A stretch of DNA of 62,495 bases, taken from contig CAMCVW010000017.1 in NCBI GenBank assembly GCA_945881915.1, positions 1-62,495 on the forward strand, read 5' to 3'. Origin of the DNA: Thermoflexus hugenholtzii JAD2 (GTDB taxonomy: Bacteria; Chloroflexota; Chloroflexia; Chloroflexales; Roseiflexaceae). Under the pieces are notes generated by a model that had not been told where the DNA came from, made no database searches, and saw only the letters and a program-made list of their open reading frames with translations. Shown piece by piece: positions 54,914-61,636 of this stretch (positions are counted from its first letter, which is position 1; every line of letters begins with the position of its first letter). The translations under genes were made by a program, and so were the position numbers.

Positions 54914-54942
54914 CCCCGGATTCGCACGGCGCGGATCCGGGG
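54914..54942 (+). terminator. Hairpin after nuoE
   Basis: 12-bp stem (ccccggattcgc / gcggatccgggg, one G-U) with a 5-base loop, 14 bases after the nuoE stop. It is followed by only a weak T-rich tail (aattgtgttta), so termination may be partial. Confidence 0.55.
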
Positions 54943-55115: not shown

Positions 55116-55213
55116 CATCATGCGAAAACCACACAGGCACCTCCTCATTTGCCACGGTATACGGCATATGGTAGTATTTTAGTATCAAGGTCACGATGAT
55201 TTAAGGGATAGCA

Positions 55214-55888
55214 ATGACACAAAATGAGTTCCGGCTACCCGAGTTACATTTCGATACATCTAATCCGGACCCACGCTGCGCGTGTGTGTTGGTACTCGAT
55301 ACATCGACATCGATGGCCGGCGAAAAAATCAACCAACTCAACGAAGGTTTGCAGGCCTTCCAGACGGAACTGCGCACTGACGAAATAGCCCAATCTCGGG
55401 TCGAAGTGGCAGTGGTGACGTTCGGACCAGTCCAAATTGCGGTACCGTTCACATCAGCCAGTGAATTCCGCGCACCGGAGCTGGTCACCACCGGCGACAC
55501 GCCATTGGGCGCGGCTTTGCATCAAGCGCTGGACATGGTGCACGAGCGCAAAGCACTCTACCGCAGCGTGGGCATCCCCTATTATCGGCCGTGGATTATG
55601 TTGGTGACCGACGGCACACCGAGTGACGGTACGCAGCAGTGGAAGAGCGCCGCCCAGCGCATCCGCGCTGAGGAAGTGAAAAAGGGCGTCGCGTTCTTTG
55701 GCGTGGGCGTCGCTGGGGCAGATATGCACGTGCTGAGCCTATTGTCACATCGCCAGCCGATTGGGTTGAAGGGGTACTCCTTCCGCGAAATGTTCGTCTG
55801 GTTGTCTGGCAGCCTGCAACACGTCTCGCAGTCACAGCCAAACGACACCGTGACCCTCAAACCGACCTCCGACTGGGGAACGCTGTAG
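55214..55888 (+). CDS. TerY-like vWA-domain protein
   Basis: 224 residues, a single von Willebrand A domain with an intact metal-ion site: DTSTS (residues 29-33), a conserved Thr in TTGDTPLGAAL, and the Asp in VTDGTPSDG. The insert-free, compact form with LPELHFDTSNPDPRC at the start and GVGVAGADMHVLSLLS near the end resembles TerY of tellurite-resistance-type systems rather than integrin-like or chelatase vWA. In published TerY-P triads this protein is encoded with a PP2C phosphatase and a kinase, as here: the PP2C gene follows after 16 bp. It probably acts as a metal-dependent binding platform for its partners. TAAGGG lies upstream of ATG 55214. Confidence 0.85.
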   Translation: MTQNEFRLPELHFDTSNPDPRCACVLVLDTSTSMAGEKINQLNEGLQAFQTELRTDEIAQSRVEVAVVTFGPVQIAVPFTSASEFRAPELVTTGDTPLGAALHQALDMVHERKALYRSVGIPYYRPWIMLVTDGTPSDGTQQWKSAAQRIRAEEVKKGVAFFGVGVAGADMHVLSLLSHRQPIGLKGYSFREMFVWLSGSLQHVSQSQPNDTVTLKPTSDWGTL

Positions 55889-55904
55889 CGGAAAGGGACC
55901 CAGA

Positions 55905-56702
55905 ATGTCGTGGACATCCGGGGGCGCTTCGATTGTGGGCAGCTCTCACCTCAAGACCGAGACTCCCTGCCAAGATGCGCATATGATTATGTTAGCCAAC
56001 GGTACCTTAATCATCGCAGTGTCGGACGGTCTTGGATCCGCAGCGTTGGCACACTTAGGTGCAAAGCATGCCTGCAAAAGCGCGGTTGCTTCGATAGAAC
56101 GTACATTCGATCTGCAACGCACGCGCAAATTGTCGCTAGCCGGCGTCCGTGAGCTCATCTGGCGTTTCACACGGGCGCCCAAAAATCCAGAACAGATGCT
56201 CAAAGAAGCTTTTTCTGAAGTGCGAGCGAGTTTAGTCAAACTCGCAGCCGCCGAAGGGCAAAGCCTAAGTGCATATGCGTGTACCTTGATGGTCGCGGTG
56301 GTGATGGCGGATTCGTGGCATGCGTTACACATCGGCGACGGCGCAATTGTCGGCATCCTGGCAGACGGAAGCGTGTCTACCCTGAGTGCACCGGAGCGTG
56401 GCGAGTTCGTCAATTCCGTGACACCTATTACCAGTACCCGCTACCAGCTCGCCCAACGCTACAGCGAGGGCAGCCAGCGCCTCGAAGGAATTGCCGTTTT
56501 CAGCGACGGCATTCAACATTTGTGCATCAACTACAAATCAGGGGCTGCCTTCGATGGCTTCTTCCAGCCGATTTTGTCGTGGTTTCGTGGCTTGCCGCGC
56601 GACTTCGATCGGACGACGGCGCTGGCAAAACTGCTCGATTCGGCGCAAATTCGCCAGAAGAGTGACGACGATTTGACGCTCGTTTTGGCGTTACGGAGCT
56701 AA
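55905..56702 (+). CDS. PP2C-family protein phosphatase of the triad
   Basis: 265 residues. Metal-dependent Ser/Thr phosphatase of the PP2C_2 type: the first metal Asp is in CQDAH (Asp24), the second in SDGLGSA (Asp41, GlyX-Gly), and further acidic residues in HIGDGAIVGI and FSDGIQHL, with KSDDDLTLVL at the end. The short form without a regulatory domain fits the phosphatase of TerY-P triads. It would oppose the kinase encoded 55 bp downstream, perhaps on the vWA protein, on the kinase itself or on an RCC1-bound target. ATG 55905 has AAAGGGA upstream. Confidence 0.88.
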   Translation: MSWTSGGASIVGSSHLKTETPCQDAHMIMLANGTLIIAVSDGLGSAALAHLGAKHACKSAVASIERTFDLQRTRKLSLAGVRELIWRFTRAPKNPEQMLKEAFSEVRASLVKLAAAEGQSLSAYACTLMVAVVMADSWHALHIGDGAIVGILADGSVSTLSAPERGEFVNSVTPITSTRYQLAQRYSEGSQRLEGIAVFSDGIQHLCINYKSGAAFDGFFQPILSWFRGLPRDFDRTTALAKLLDSAQIRQKSDDDLTLVLALRS

Positions 56703-56757
56703 TGTATCCTCGATTCACGCCCGAATGCGGCGTGACTGACACACGAGGGTTGCTGGT

Positions 56758-59700
56758 ATGAGCCCACATCATCAACTCGTTTTTTATACGGGTCCGCGTG
56801 AAGCGGTGCACCTCGCAAACCTCATCGCTTCGGGCGGTGAAGGTGGGGTATACAATGTCTTCGAGTACCCAGAACAGGTCGCCAAGATATTCCACCCACG
56901 GCAACGGACCAGCGCGATCGCCGAAAAACTGCAAGTGATGTTGCAGTTCCGGCCCACAGAGGATGTCAATGCACATCGCCAGCATGTGTTGATTGCGTGG
57001 CCGACACAAATTATCTACAAAACCCCAAGTGCCCAATCGTCGTATACCAGCGCCAACGGCACCGAAAATCTGGTGGTGGGCTACTTGATGCCCAAGCTGA
57101 ACCACACCTATGCAATCGCACAACTCCTGAATCCGAACTTCCGCGTCAAACACCATCCTGAATTGAACCATCGGCACATCTATCGCGTTGCCATAAACTT
57201 GGTGCGGATTGTCAGTCAGCTGCACAACAGCGGGATTGTAATCGGCGACATCAATGAAAAGAATTTTCACTTCACCAAAGAACTCGACCGCGTCGCTTTG
57301 GTCACCGTCATTGACTGTGACTCGATGCAGATTACCTCACCCCAGGGCGAAATATTCCCCTGCAATGTCGTCGTCCCCGAATATACCGCGCCGGAGCTGC
57401 ACGGCAAAGATATCCGCAAGGGTGTCGTACGGACCGAACAACACGATCTGTTCGGATTAGCGGTGCTGTTGTACAAGTTGTTGATGCAGGGTTTTCACCC
57501 GTTTCAGGGCATTCCTTCGGCAGGGATGCCGCAGGTCGAATCGGCGCAGGTGTGGTGTATCAAAAACAACGTCTTCCCGCACATCGCCAATTCGTTCTAC
57601 GGCCCGCCACGCTATGCACCCCGCATCACGTCTTTGCCAGCGAGCCTGATTACATTGTTTCTCCGGGCATTTCTCAAAGGATTTAGCCGTCCGACTGCTG
57701 CAGAATGGGAAGTGGCATTGACGCAGCTCGAGCAGACGCTCGTGCCCTGTGGTAATGACGAGAGTCACATCCATCCCAAGGATTGTCCGTGTGTCGTCTG
57801 CGAATGGGATTTTGCCAATGGAAAACGCGCCTCTGGTGGGATTGTGGTGCCTGCAGAATTAGCCGATATGCCCCTCCCGCCTTTGCTTCGGGCCAACGAA
57901 ATACAGCCAGTCAGTCACATCACCGCAGCGCCGCGCCAGCACGCAGATACCGCAATTGAGCCAATTCGCCTGACTGAGCCGGAGGTCGTTCATTCCGAAG
58001 AACGCGTCATCCCCAAGTCGCTGTGGAGTACCCCCGTCGAGCAGCGGTCCGCATCATCACAGTCAGCACCCATCCCGACGCTAGCGGCCCCTGCTGCATC
58101 GCAAGCGGCCCCTGCTTCCTCACAATCAGCACCGATACCGATCCAGATGGATGCGTCATCGGGGCAACCATCTACCGCTCCTGCCCCATCAGAGGAAGCA
58201 CCCGATGCCACACCGATAGCGAGCATAAAACCGTCGCTGTGGAGTTCGCCGTTGCCTGCCATATCGAACCCTATCCCCGTGATTCGCAATCCGTTGGCGA
58301 ACCCCGTCGATCCAGTGCCTGCGCTGCCGCCGATGGACTCGCTGCAAACCACCATACCCACCACCACACCCACCAGCACACCCCTGGCAGTACCATTGGC
58401 ACGAGTGCCGGAGTATAATTTACTGGTCGGCCAGCGTCCTCCCGACGCATCGCCACCGCAGCAGTTCCAGCCAGAGCCAATACCGGTCCAACCACAGCCC
58501 ACGCCGGTCCAAGGAGCGCCCGCCGACAGGGGGTTGCAGACCGAGGCACTCGACACCCGGGCGATTGCTGCCGCATTCCAGAGCATCGCTACGTTTGTCA
58601 ACGATACTCTGGATGTTGTCGACGATACACTCCCCGCCACGAGTAGCGTCCCCAAGTCATTATGGAGCACTCCGTTGCGGCCAAATGAGGCAATACGGGT
58701 ACCAACCGAGGCAGGTAATCCCTCACCCGCAGAACCAGATGTGAATGCAATTCCCCTGCCATATGACCCCTACCGCCAAAGTCAACCCGCGGCCAATGCT
58801 GCGTCGAGTGAAGTACCCCGTAGCACGCGACAACCCGACGCTGCAGCGGCATACTCCGATGAAGCAGCAACAAATCTGCCGCCAATAGCCGCATCACGAT
58901 CGCTGTGGAGCACTCCGCTCCAAGCAGGTGAAGCGACGCGTGTCCCACGCGAAGCAGGTGCTGAGCAATCGAGCGCCGGATCGCGGACACAATTCCTTGC
59001 CCCACTGGGTGACGAGAACGGTGCACTGCCTGTACCATCATCCGAACAACGGGCATTCGAAGCCCCACCGACCACAATCTCGCAAGGGAATTCGCTCTGG
59101 AGTACACCACTCCAGGCAGGGGAAGCGACGCGTGTACCCGTAGAATCGGGGAATGCGACCACCACCCGACCGTTTGGGCGTGGTGCAGATGCAATTCCCA
59201 TCATGACGGGACGTTCAGATGCCCCGCCTTACGCACCACGACCACCAGAACCAAACGACGTCAGCACGCTGGTCACACCGCGGGCAAACATACCCGCAGT
59301 GCCCATAGAGATTCGCCGCGGTACCACCCTGGCGGCAGGCGCACAGCACATCGTTGCAGTCCGTGGTGATGGTACGGTCTGGACGCTGAGCGAGCCGCCC
59401 ATCACGGCACTGCAAGTCCCTACCGGACTGAGCGGCGTGGTCGCGGTCGCAGCTGGCCAGCAGCACAGTCTGGCATTGTGCTATGACGGAAGTGTTGTAG
59501 CGTGGGGGATGAACGGACTCGGTCAGACCAATATCCCCATCGGGCTGAGTGACGTCGTCGCCATCGCAGCCGGTGGAGCATTCTCGTTGGCACTCCAGCG
59601 CGACGGACGCGTCGTCGCCTGGGGGGATGACCAATCGCTGCAGTGCCAAGTTCCACCCAATATAGGCACCGTGGTCCAGATTGCCGCAGGCAGCACGCAC

Positions 59701-61014
59701 GGGATGGCGCTGCGCGCAGATGGGACGGTCGTCGAGTGGGGGTTGCTCGATCGCGATGCATTACTCGATGCCCGCGGCGTCAGCGGGATCGCAGCCATCG
59801 CCGCACACGATGGTTTGAGCGTCGTGTTGACCAATCAAGGCGAAGTCGTGTGCTGGGGCAAGAACGTCGGTTCTGCACGGGCAGCAGTCAGACAACTCCC
59901 TCCTATTTGCCACATCGGGCTGGGCAAACAGACGATTGTGGCGGTAGATGTGCGCGGCACCATCCATGTCATTTCGCCCCAGGCAAGCACACCGACACAC
60001 GTGGCCGAAAGCCACGCACTGGTGACTGCCACGGATACTCAGGTCGTCGTTTGTGAAGGTGCGAACGTCTCGTTGACGGGCACAAACGGGACACGCACTG
60101 TCGAGTTCCAAAGTCACCACGTCCAGCGCATTGGGGCGTCACTGTCTGCAATCGACCGTTCACTGGCATTGCAACAACTATCGCAGCGGACATTCGCGAC
60201 CATTGCCGCTGGCTACGAACACACCGTCGGAATCACTGCCGAAGGGCAACTTTTGAGCTGGGGCGACAATACCTATGGTCAACGAACCGCCCCCAATCAG
60301 CATTTGATCGCAGTTGCTGCCGGCGGCTGGCATGCGTTGGGGTACGACAGTGAAGGTCGCATTCACGCCTGGGGACGCAGTAATCACGGCCAGACGGTGT
60401 TTGCCACGGTGAACAAATTCCGGGCTGCGGGCGTCGCGGCCGGGATGGTCCACTCGTTGGCGGTCGGCGACGACGGCAGGATTTTGGCATGGGGCAACAA
60501 CGACGACGGCCAATGTAGCGTACCCGACATGTCTTTGCCGGGTATCGCGGTGGCAGCCGGTATGCGTCATTCGGTCGTGCTTCTCGCAGATGGCACGGTA
60601 CGTGCCTGGGGGAACGGCAGTGCCAATCAGACGGCAGTACCCCCGACGCTGAGTGGCGTCATCGCTGTGGCTGCCGGGGGGCAGTCTTCGGCAGCGCTCA
60701 AGGACGATGGCTCCGTAGTGGTGTGGGGAGAATTGGCAGTGCGCGCCCAGAGCATTGCACACATCCGCGACGCAGTCGCCGTCAGCCTCGGTGGGGAACA
60801 CGGCGTGGTCCTACGTGCCAACGGCCTACTCGAATTCTTTGGAAATGATGACTACGGCCAATGCTCGCTGCCACGCTCGCTGCCACGCATCGTGGCGGTC
60901 GCCTGCGGCACCTTGCACACCATCGTCTTGGCAGAATCCGGTCAGATGTATGCCTGGGGTCGGGACTCGTACCAGCAGACGCATGTGCCCGATGGGGTGA
61001 TATTCCGGCGGTGA
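56758..61014 (+). CDS. Protein kinase with SLWSTP-repeat linker and fourteen RCC1-like repeats
   Basis: 1418 residues. Residues 15-330 are a divergent Ser/Thr kinase: glycine loop GGEGGV (26-31), VAK (Lys43), catalytic loop GDINEKN (163-169) replacing HRDxxxxN, DCD (186-188) replacing DFG, APE (211-213), and DLFGLAVLLYKLL. A Cys/His cluster follows (CGNDESHIHPKDCPCVVC, 331-348), a likely zinc knuckle as in TerY-P triad kinases. Residues 360-850 are a disordered Pro/Ala/Ser-rich linker with five SLWS(T/S)P motifs. Residues 858-1418 hold fourteen repeats of the RCC1 type (xAAGxxHxxAL...DGxVxxWG), seven before and seven after a spacer near 1090-1148, read as two seven-bladed propellers. No signal peptide or membrane helix. 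Start ATG 56758 follows GAGGG. Function inferred: phospho-signalling with the vWA and PP2C neighbours. Confidence 0.9.
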   Translation: MSPHHQLVFYTGPREAVHLANLIASGGEGGVYNVFEYPEQVAKIFHPRQRTSAIAEKLQVMLQFRPTEDVNAHRQHVLIAWPTQIIYKTPSAQSSYTSANGTENLVVGYLMPKLNHTYAIAQLLNPNFRVKHHPELNHRHIYRVAINLVRIVSQLHNSGIVIGDINEKNFHFTKELDRVALVTVIDCDSMQITSPQGEIFPCNVVVPEYTAPELHGKDIRKGVVRTEQHDLFGLAVLLYKLLMQGFHPFQGIPSAGMPQVESAQVWCIKNNVFPHIANSFYGPPRYAPRITSLPASLITLFLRAFLKGFSRPTAAEWEVALTQLEQTLVPCGNDESHIHPKDCPCVVCEWDFANGKRASGGIVVPAELADMPLPPLLRANEIQPVSHITAAPRQHADTAIEPIRLTEPEVVHSEERVIPKSLWSTPVEQRSASSQSAPIPTLAAPAASQAAPASSQSAPIPIQMDASSGQPSTAPAPSEEAPDATPIASIKPSLWSSPLPAISNPIPVIRNPLANPVDPVPALPPMDSLQTTIPTTTPTSTPLAVPLARVPEYNLLVGQRPPDASPPQQFQPEPIPVQPQPTPVQGAPADRGLQTEALDTRAIAAAFQSIATFVNDTLDVVDDTLPATSSVPKSLWSTPLRPNEAIRVPTEAGNPSPAEPDVNAIPLPYDPYRQSQPAANAASSEVPRSTRQPDAAAAYSDEAATNLPPIAASRSLWSTPLQAGEATRVPREAGAEQSSAGSRTQFLAPLGDENGALPVPSSEQRAFEAPPTTISQGNSLWSTPLQAGEATRVPVESGNATTTRPFGRGADAIPIMTGRSDAPPYAPRPPEPNDVSTLVTPRANIPAVPIEIRRGTTLAAGAQHIVAVRGDGTVWTLSEPPITALQVPTGLSGVVAVAAGQQHSLALCYDGSVVAWGMNGLGQTNIPIGLSDVVAIAAGGAFSLALQRDGRVVAWGDDQSLQCQVPPNIGTVVQIAAGSTHGMALRADGTVVEWGLLDRDALLDARGVSGIAAIAAHDGLSVVLTNQGEVVCWGKNVGSARAAVRQLPPICHIGLGKQTIVAVDVRGTIHVISPQASTPTHVAESHALVTATDTQVVVCEGANVSLTGTNGTRTVEFQSHHVQRIGASLSAIDRSLALQQLSQRTFATIAAGYEHTVGITAEGQLLSWGDNTYGQRTAPNQHLIAVAAGGWHALGYDSEGRIHAWGRSNHGQTVFATVNKFRAAGVAAGMVHSLAVGDDGRILAWGNNDDGQCSVPDMSLPGIAVAAGMRHSVVLLADGTVRAWGNGSANQTAVPPTLSGVIAVAAGGQSSAALKDDGSVVVWGELAVRAQSIAHIRDAVAVSLGGEHGVVLRANGLLEFFGNDDYGQCSLPRSLPRIVAVACGTLHTIVLAESGQMYAWGRDSYQQTHVPDGVIFRR
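58012..59112 (+). repeat. Five copies of a short SLWS(T/S)P motif in the kinase linker
   Basis: Copies at kinase residues 419-426 (PKSLWSTP), 492-498 (PSLWSSP), 632-639 (PKSLWSTP), 715-720 (SLWSTP) and 779-784 (SLWSTP). The last three are longer, continuing as PLxxxEAxRVPxE(A/S)G, and look like recent tandem duplications of about 25-30 codons within low-complexity sequence. DNA identity between copies 4 and 5 is high in the shared part. Confidence 0.85.
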
Positions 61015-61057: not shown

Positions 61058-61104
61058 CCAATTACTCACTATTCACTACTAATTACTAATTCGTACTTCG
61101 CACT
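61058..61104. repeat. AT-rich degenerate short tandem repeat
   Basis: Three to four imperfect 8-12-base units of the form attactcactattcac / tactaattactaattcg. The reverse complement resembles the repeat at 62270-62355, so the two bracket the 61.1-62.3 kb genes in inverted orientation. Confidence 0.5.
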
Positions 61105-61636
61105 ACTCCGTCGCATTCACCGTGACCACCGCCTGGGTGGCGTCGTCTTTGTCGGCCATGCTCACCACGATATAGGCGGTCTGCGCAATGGTGAAGCTCA
61201 GCGCGATCTGTTGAATCCGTTCTGGCTTGACCGAATCAGTGTACAGAATGGTACAGCCGTCTCCCGTACCCGTCGCCACATACCCGTCGCCTGCCTCGTT
61301 CGGTCCCCAGAAGATGTTCGTCGTACAAGACTCTGGCCCGGCGACATACGCCACGGCATAATTGACGGTTGTCGAATTATTGCGCAAGTTGATGTTGACG
61401 GTCGAACCATCTGTCGTATTGGCCAACGACATATTGACCGCATCCGTAGACACCGTCAATTCTCCATTGTCGGATCCAAAGCCAATCGTGCAATTTTCTT
61501 CTTGCAGGCCGATGTTGATACAATTAGCGCCGACGATTGGCTGCACGCTCGAGCCGTTTACCGATGCGGTACACGAACTCAGTACAATTGCCAAGCCACA
61601 CACCACGAAAAACCCACGAAGTGTCACGAGATTCAT
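61103..61636 (-). CDS. Predicted lipoprotein, unknown function
   Basis: 177 residues. N-terminal signal with a lipobox (AIVLSSC, Cys at about residue 22) predicts lipid attachment and an extracytoplasmic location. The mature part is acidic, rich in Asn/Thr/Gly and beta-strand-like, with several cysteines (NCIN, ENCTIG, ESCTTN, DGCTIL) that could form disulfides. No domain recognised. ATG 61636 is preceded by AAAAGGAGAAT, a good ribosome site. It ends at the GC-rich hairpin terminator. Confidence 0.72.
   Translation of the reverse strand: MNLVTLRGFFVVCGLAIVLSSCTASVNGSSVQPIVGANCINIGLQEENCTIGFGSDNGELTVSTDAVNMSLANTTDGSTVNINLRNNSTTVNYAVAYVAGPESCTTNIFWGPNEAGDGYVATGTGDGCTILYTDSVKPERIQQIALSFTIAQTAYIVVSMADKDDATQAVVTVNATE

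Follow-up and report, generated by a model that had tools for sequence, protein, structure and literature searches.

A YegI-type kinase triad with a predicted RCC1 double propeller on the kinase chain in freshwater Roseiflexaceae

The window analysed here, the whole 62,495-nucleotide stretch of contig CAMCVW010000017.1 (assembly GCA_945881915.1), belongs, judged from named relatives, to a metagenome-assembled genome of a freshwater or lake Roseiflexaceae bacterium and carries, directly behind nuoE, three genes coding for a von Willebrand factor A (vWA) protein, a PP2C phosphatase and a protein kinase whose chain continues through a long linker into two predicted RCC1-type propellers. Family placement by sequence is firm: the locus is assigned to the TerY-P/YegI-type triads because its genes match those of E. 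coli YegL, PphC and YegI in the same order. The triad itself was already known, and it is the YegI/TerY-P kinase with an RCC1 tail that appears as a novel combination, within a partial literature search and a survey of Chloroflexota. We propose, with a probability of roughly 0.55, that the locus encodes a phosphorylation switch of the YegL-PphC-YegI (TerY-P) type in which the kinase has turned cytosolic and is guided by its propeller. The features on which the argument draws are the following:

55214..55888, plus strand: vWA protein, YegL/TerY-like, 224 amino acids (open reading frame; Pfam VWA 7e-12)
55905..56702, plus strand: PP2C phosphatase, PphC-like, 265 amino acids (open reading frame; Pfam PP2C_2 6e-41)
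56758..61014, plus strand: kinase-linker-double RCC1 protein, open reading frame of 1418 amino acids
56758..57744, plus strand: atypical Ser/Thr kinase domain, residues 1-329 (alignments, AlphaFold2 model, fold match, identity to YegI)
57748..57801, plus strand: candidate zinc element C331-x5-H337-x7-C345-x2-C348, kept in relatives and in YegI
57868..59331, plus strand: Pro/Ala-rich linker, residues 371-858, about 490 residues
58018..59112, plus strand: span with five S[LVM]W[SI][TS]P[LVI] motifs, at residues 421, 493, 634, 715 and 779
59314..60036, plus strand: first RCC1/BLIP-II-like propeller, about residues 853-1093 (structure match of the model)
60181..61011, plus strand: second RCC1/BLIP-II-like propeller, about residues 1142-1418 (structure match of the model)

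An earlier reading of the letters alone, called here the sequence-only reading, had described three same-strand genes separated by 16 bp (vWA/PP2C) and 55 bp (PP2C/kinase gene), and both coordinates and strand agree with it. It had also recognised a compact vWA protein with a DTSTS motif and a stand-alone PP2C, identities that the Pfam matches bear out. The vWA protein is 53% identical to E. coli YegL, with which its complete set of metal-ion-dependent adhesion site (MIDAS) residues aligns (DTSTS...GDTP...TDG); a cobaltochelatase-type identity was dropped, the NCBIfam match being weak only. The phosphatase matches E. coli PphC with 29% identity (E 8e-22), and direct reading finds the Asp motifs of the catalytic and metal sites retained (DGLGS, GDG, SDGIQ, DDDLT). 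Across the four genomes that carry the fused form the vWA protein is near-invariant, with 98-100% protein identity and a nonsynonymous divergence (dN) of about 0.01, far above its partners in conservation, while the DNA of its gene is about 83% identical between the source genome and the other carriers.

The kinase domain matches Pfam Pkinase at 6e-6, under the family cut-off, so the label of divergent kinase given by the sequence-only reading was correct. It nevertheless retains the landmarks of its fold, namely a GGEGG loop, K43, D164 and N169 in IGDINEKN, D186 in DCD, and APE, and in an alignment of 13 relatives G26-G27-E28-G29, K43, D164, N166, N169, D186, D188 and E208 are kept. Because the Lys, the catalytic Asp, the Asn and the metal-binding Asp are all there, the domain looks active from its residues. 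The AlphaFold2 model of residues 1-361, built on a 17-sequence input, adopts a protein-kinase fold with a mean predicted local distance difference test score (pLDDT) of 84.5 and a predicted template modelling score (pTM) of 0.87; its best structural matches (VIA) are protein kinases, including BRAF (Z 19.9) and PknB (Z 19.7). The kinase is 30% identical to E. coli YegI (E 5e-40), and a profile match (E 1e-80) extends over the Cys/His cluster that follows. This C-H-C-C cluster, already noticed in the sequence-only reading, is modelled as a hairpin plus a helix directly behind the kinase domain; three of its four residues do not vary among 13 sequences, and C348 is absent only where one row is masked with N. 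It is a candidate zinc element, in keeping with the one that TerY-P kinases carry.

The YegL-PphC(YegK)-YegI locus of E. coli K-12 encodes these three proteins in the same order, and the C-H-C-C element follows the kinase in both, which makes it the nearest characterised kin of the window locus and upholds the earlier assignment to the TerY-P triad with a zinc-like element at the C-terminal side of the kinase. YegI is reported to be membrane bound and to autophosphorylate on serine, and PphC to remove the phosphate from it (PMC13232886). The C-terminal region of YegI is different: a hydropathy scan finds in the window protein no membrane helix, apart from one Ala/Gly-rich RCC1 blade, and no segment resembling an export signal, and the kinase is followed instead by the 490-residue linker and two propellers. 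The TerY-P triads (Anantharaman 2012) likewise unite a TerY-like vWA protein, a PP2C and a kinase that bears a zinc ribbon; they are proposed to work as metal-sensing phosphorylation switches and are often linked with defence systems (PMC11090510). One TerY-P version, in which an OB fold replaces the zinc element, is reported to act against T7-like phages (PMC7699616); no OB fold was found in the window kinase.

The C-terminal part, for which the sequence-only reading had proposed fourteen RCC1-like repeats in a double propeller, matches Pfam RCC1_2 (2e-78) and WD40_RLD (1e-81), and a sequence comparison of residues 859-1418 with solved structures ranks BLIP-II first (1jtd, E 2e-32). In the model of residues 853-1418, the first propeller (model positions 1-241) fits BLIP-II 3qi0 with a Z score of 22.6 and the HERC2 RLD 7q40 with 20.7, and the second (positions 290-566) fits UVR8 and BLIP-II 1jtd with Z of about 20. 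Since each half separately aligns with a complete seven-bladed propeller, the presence of two RCC1/BLIP-II-like propellers is supported by the model. The count of fourteen holds for 13 clear three-strand blades, the fourteenth corresponding to a degenerate or low-confidence stretch (model positions 222-304, residues 1074-1156). The likeness to BLIP-II and RCC1/UVR8 concerns the fold and the repeat type, each half being a whole propeller; BLIP-II consists of one seven-bladed propeller that is secreted and inhibits beta-lactamases, whereas here two propellers sit on a kinase chain that shows neither a signal-like segment nor a transmembrane helix, so that the window protein falls outside the BLIP-II group. 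A role like that of the Ran guanine-nucleotide exchange factor was dropped, no Ran-type partner being sought or known.

The linker between kinase and propellers, whose length and Pro/Ala-rich composition had been read correctly, changes fast, with about 49% identity between the source genome (G000) and G007. Within this background five SLWSTPL-type motifs, which the sequence-only reading had passed over, stand at matching places in all four orthologues, the fifth reading SMWSTPL in G006 and G008, and the last three are followed by xxxEATRVPxExG or near variants. One motif-bearing sequence is SLWSTPLQAGEATRVP, and all five of the linker's Trp residues sit in these motifs. Shuffled linkers gave a mean of 0.00005 motif matches, and a whole-genome search with the DNA pattern of the strict form matched this linker only. 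Further conserved islands are NAIPLPYDPYRQ and TTRPFGRG-DAIPIMT. From their sequence, the SLWSTPL motifs look like candidate docking or modification sites.

The conservation of the fusion and of the three genes as neighbours was studied in 11 genomes of the freshwater Roseiflexaceae genus to which the host belongs. Four of them (G000, G006, G007 and G008) carry the fused form, each time with nuoE preceding the triad, and the three genes are conserved neighbours, as the earlier proposal required; four sister genomes have other genes and no triad after nuoE, and in G004 the contig ends at that point. Contig ends interrupt the gene in G006 and G008, where the kinase and RCC1 parts lie on two contigs each that both end in matching linker stretches, and the fusion in those two is therefore inferred. 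The four fused kinases form one clade in the kinase tree (support 100/100), a result that fits either origin, a split from the paralogue of the genus or a separate arrival; the vWA tree, mostly unresolved and including one mistranslated row (G003_par), was not used. Synonymous sites are saturated in most pairs, and G006/G008, the sole usable pair, gives ratios of nonsynonymous to synonymous substitution (dN/dS) of about 0.009 for the vWA protein, 0.039 for the PP2C, 0.033 for the kinase and 0.070 for the RCC1 part. Judged by these sequence comparisons, the fusion is real and maintained by purifying selection on every part.

Of the 400 Chloroflexota genomes surveyed, 16 contain this kinase type at E <=1e-15, and the sole open frame of more than 1000 codons among them is the window's own; no RCC1 fusion in a YegI-type kinase was found there beyond the genus, within the genus no further kinase, whatever its type, reaches an open frame of more than 1000 codons, and not one plasmid record matched the greater part of the 1418-residue protein. 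The fusion thus appears confined to one small clade, as surveyed within Chloroflexota, a restriction not remarked on in the sequence-only reading. The order vWA, PP2C, kinase recurs in triads of this kind from other Chloroflexota and from a Treponema, whose PP2C and kinase genes are separated by a transglutaminase-like one. Some YegI-type kinases stand alone, with neither a vWA nor a PP2C gene next to them (L042:6452-8620, L043:14945-17299 and L044:13778-15976); they have membrane helices and a different C-terminal domain and adjoin genes for proteins with signal-like N-termini. RCC1 proteins are very numerous in the genus, with 18 to 129 matches per genome, which makes a source of the RCC1 module inside the genus plausible. 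This repeat expansion includes open frames of up to about 7400 codons (e.g., L048, L049, G005:C167 and G002:C8); two other RCC1 proteins examined in the source genome begin with a hydrophobic signal-like segment, and several plasmid-borne ones are annotated as Ig-repeat or sorting-domain proteins.

A second, paralogous triad is present in three of the four carriers (G000:C2 in the source genome; loci L035, L036 and L033 elsewhere in the genus), with 62-66% identity to the window triad in the vWA protein and 41-44% in the kinase. The kinase of this triad shares the zinc-like element and likewise has a Pro-rich linker, followed by a strong transmembrane helix and an outer domain of about 370 residues, a different tail that had also escaped the sequence-only reading. 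Kinship of this outer domain with the neighbouring substrate-binding-protein (SBP) lipoprotein was tested and not found. Between PP2C and kinase of the paralogous triad lie genes for a MOSC protein and a beta-carbonic anhydrase, both metal-related (L036:3976-12332, L035:1883-9703, L033:5698-13536); a divergent TerB-like gene stands in front, with a sub-threshold Pfam match (1e-4 to 3e-4 in relatives), and an SBP-type lipoprotein gene after the kinase, G007 being one genome with the two inserted genes and the lipoprotein gene. A Clostridiales YegI-type kinase (L067:5720-9883) carries a transmembrane helix and 22 Sel1 repeats on one chain of 1387 residues. As relatives bear differing C-terminal modules, the kinase tail is exchangeable, and by this comparison the cytosolic propeller stands where relatives carry a membrane module; the tree is compatible with either state coming first, and membrane tails are the common state among the relatives seen.

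In the switch that we propose, the kinase and the PP2C would together control how far the kinase chain and a client are phosphorylated, as in E. coli, and the vWA protein would serve as a metal-dependent adaptor. The sequence-only reading had supposed a propeller platform that organises target binding, phosphorylation and dephosphorylation on one scaffold; such a platform role, and assembly of the three proteins on it, would be hypothetical. The double propeller, on its long disordered arm, may bind a cytosolic partner and either present it to the kinase or restrain the kinase until the partner is bound, and the five SLWSTPL motifs of the arm could be repeated docking or autophosphorylation sites. 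Several points weigh against this proposal. In place of HRD and DFG the kinase has IGD and DCD, and its activity cannot be taken for granted; the model of residues 853-1418 has a mean pLDDT of 59 from a two-sequence input; the ligands of the propellers are not readable from sequence; mutual binding of the three proteins is an assumption; and the propeller may only inhibit, since the RCC1 domain of human NEK9 is autoinhibitory and restrains its kinase (PMC5716973). A more detailed version, which we hold only tentatively, has the kinase governed through the double propeller and a multivalent SLWSTPL tether recruiting the vWA protein and PP2C, as a lineage-specific rewiring of YegI from membrane to cytosol, convergent with NEK9.

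The precedent of NEK9 leads directly to a rival account, unlikely in our view although it keeps some weight, in which the propeller is chiefly an autoinhibitory lid released by a ligand and the SLWSTPL arm an autophosphorylated tail: kinase, RCC1 and S/T-P motifs do share one chain, but the domain order differs, with the linker before the RCC1 part, and the kinase is of YegI type and not NIMA. We regard as similarly doubtful a ter-type switch for metal or oxidative stress, in which the MIDAS of the vWA protein and the zinc element would sense metal and tune a stress response. The role proposed for TerY-P speaks for it, as do the TerB-like genes near the paralogous triad, the TerC found there in one genome (G007), and the MOSC and carbonic anhydrase genes in that operon; however, the window triad lacks all of these neighbours, as well as adjoining restriction or CoCoNuT genes, and linked ter genes were seen only at the paralogue. 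The TerB matches are below cut-off, and TerD was not found in any of the 11 genomes; linkage to ter genes is frequent in TerY-P triads but does not define them.

The altered HRD and DFG motifs, the sub-threshold Pkinase match and the pseudokinases among the structural neighbours of the model would suit a pseudokinase scaffold, whose kinase domain only binds nucleotide or partners while the PP2C acts elsewhere. This seems improbable, as relatives retain the Lys, the Asn and both the catalytic and the metal-binding Asp, and E. coli YegI, with motifs even less canonical, is reported to autophosphorylate (PMC13232886). The least likely account is an anti-phage system like the TerY-P triad reported to act against T7-like phages, with which the locus shares its three components: the PADLOC library, whose cover of the TerY-P of Gao 2020 is unverified, gives no match for the vWA protein or PP2C and only a weak one of the kinase to PD-T4-6 models, each of the four carriers has the triad after nuoE, where neither restriction nor nuclease genes were seen, and the near-invariant vWA protein and strong purifying selection favour housekeeping signalling.

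Eukaryotic proteins with a kinase and RCC1 repeats on one chain are already known. NEK8/NEK9 and the plant CR4/ACR4 kinases resemble the window protein in joining a protein kinase to an RCC1-type propeller, but they are eukaryotic, of different kinase families and with a different domain order, and the propeller of CR4 lies outside the cell. The window kinase does not belong with NEK8/NEK9, as it has IGD and DCD where NIMA-family kinases have HRD and DFG, and no NEK is among the 60 best PDB sequence matches listed. For an RCC1 domain that restrains a kinase, NEK9 offers the closest functional parallel, the whole proteins being unrelated. YegI-type triads are found in several phyla, E. coli included, and we know of no established signal, client or vWA role for them. 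A 2005 survey of bacterial kinase architectures names WD and PQQ propellers and does not mention RCC1, and the partial literature search yielded neither a description of an RCC1 tail on a YegI/TerY-P kinase nor a paper on RCC1 repeats in Chloroflexi.

Members of the family share one catalytic trio and differ in the kinase tail, which may consist of membrane helices, an outer domain, Sel1 repeats or the soluble double propeller. A soluble input module, which should be purifiable, and a membrane-tailed paralogue in the same genome make the role of the tail testable by direct comparison; the repeated SLWSTPL motif offers a concrete candidate docking or phosphorylation site, and with this locus the coupling of a propeller to a protein kinase becomes open to test in a bacterium.

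Around the triad, the remaining features are regulatory-like signals and one neighbouring gene:

54914..54942, plus strand: terminator-like hairpin between nuoE and the triad, 12-pair stem with 9 G-C pairs
55149..55177, plus strand: promoter-like site, 36 bp before the vWA start, consensus match only

The count of such hairpins is not above chance, and only the position of this one is suggestive; the number of promoter-like sites is not above chance either. Convergent with the kinase gene lies a small lipoprotein-like gene (window 61103-61636, minus strand), without a match in a Pfam search, which is kept in G007 (L032:709-1245, plus strand).
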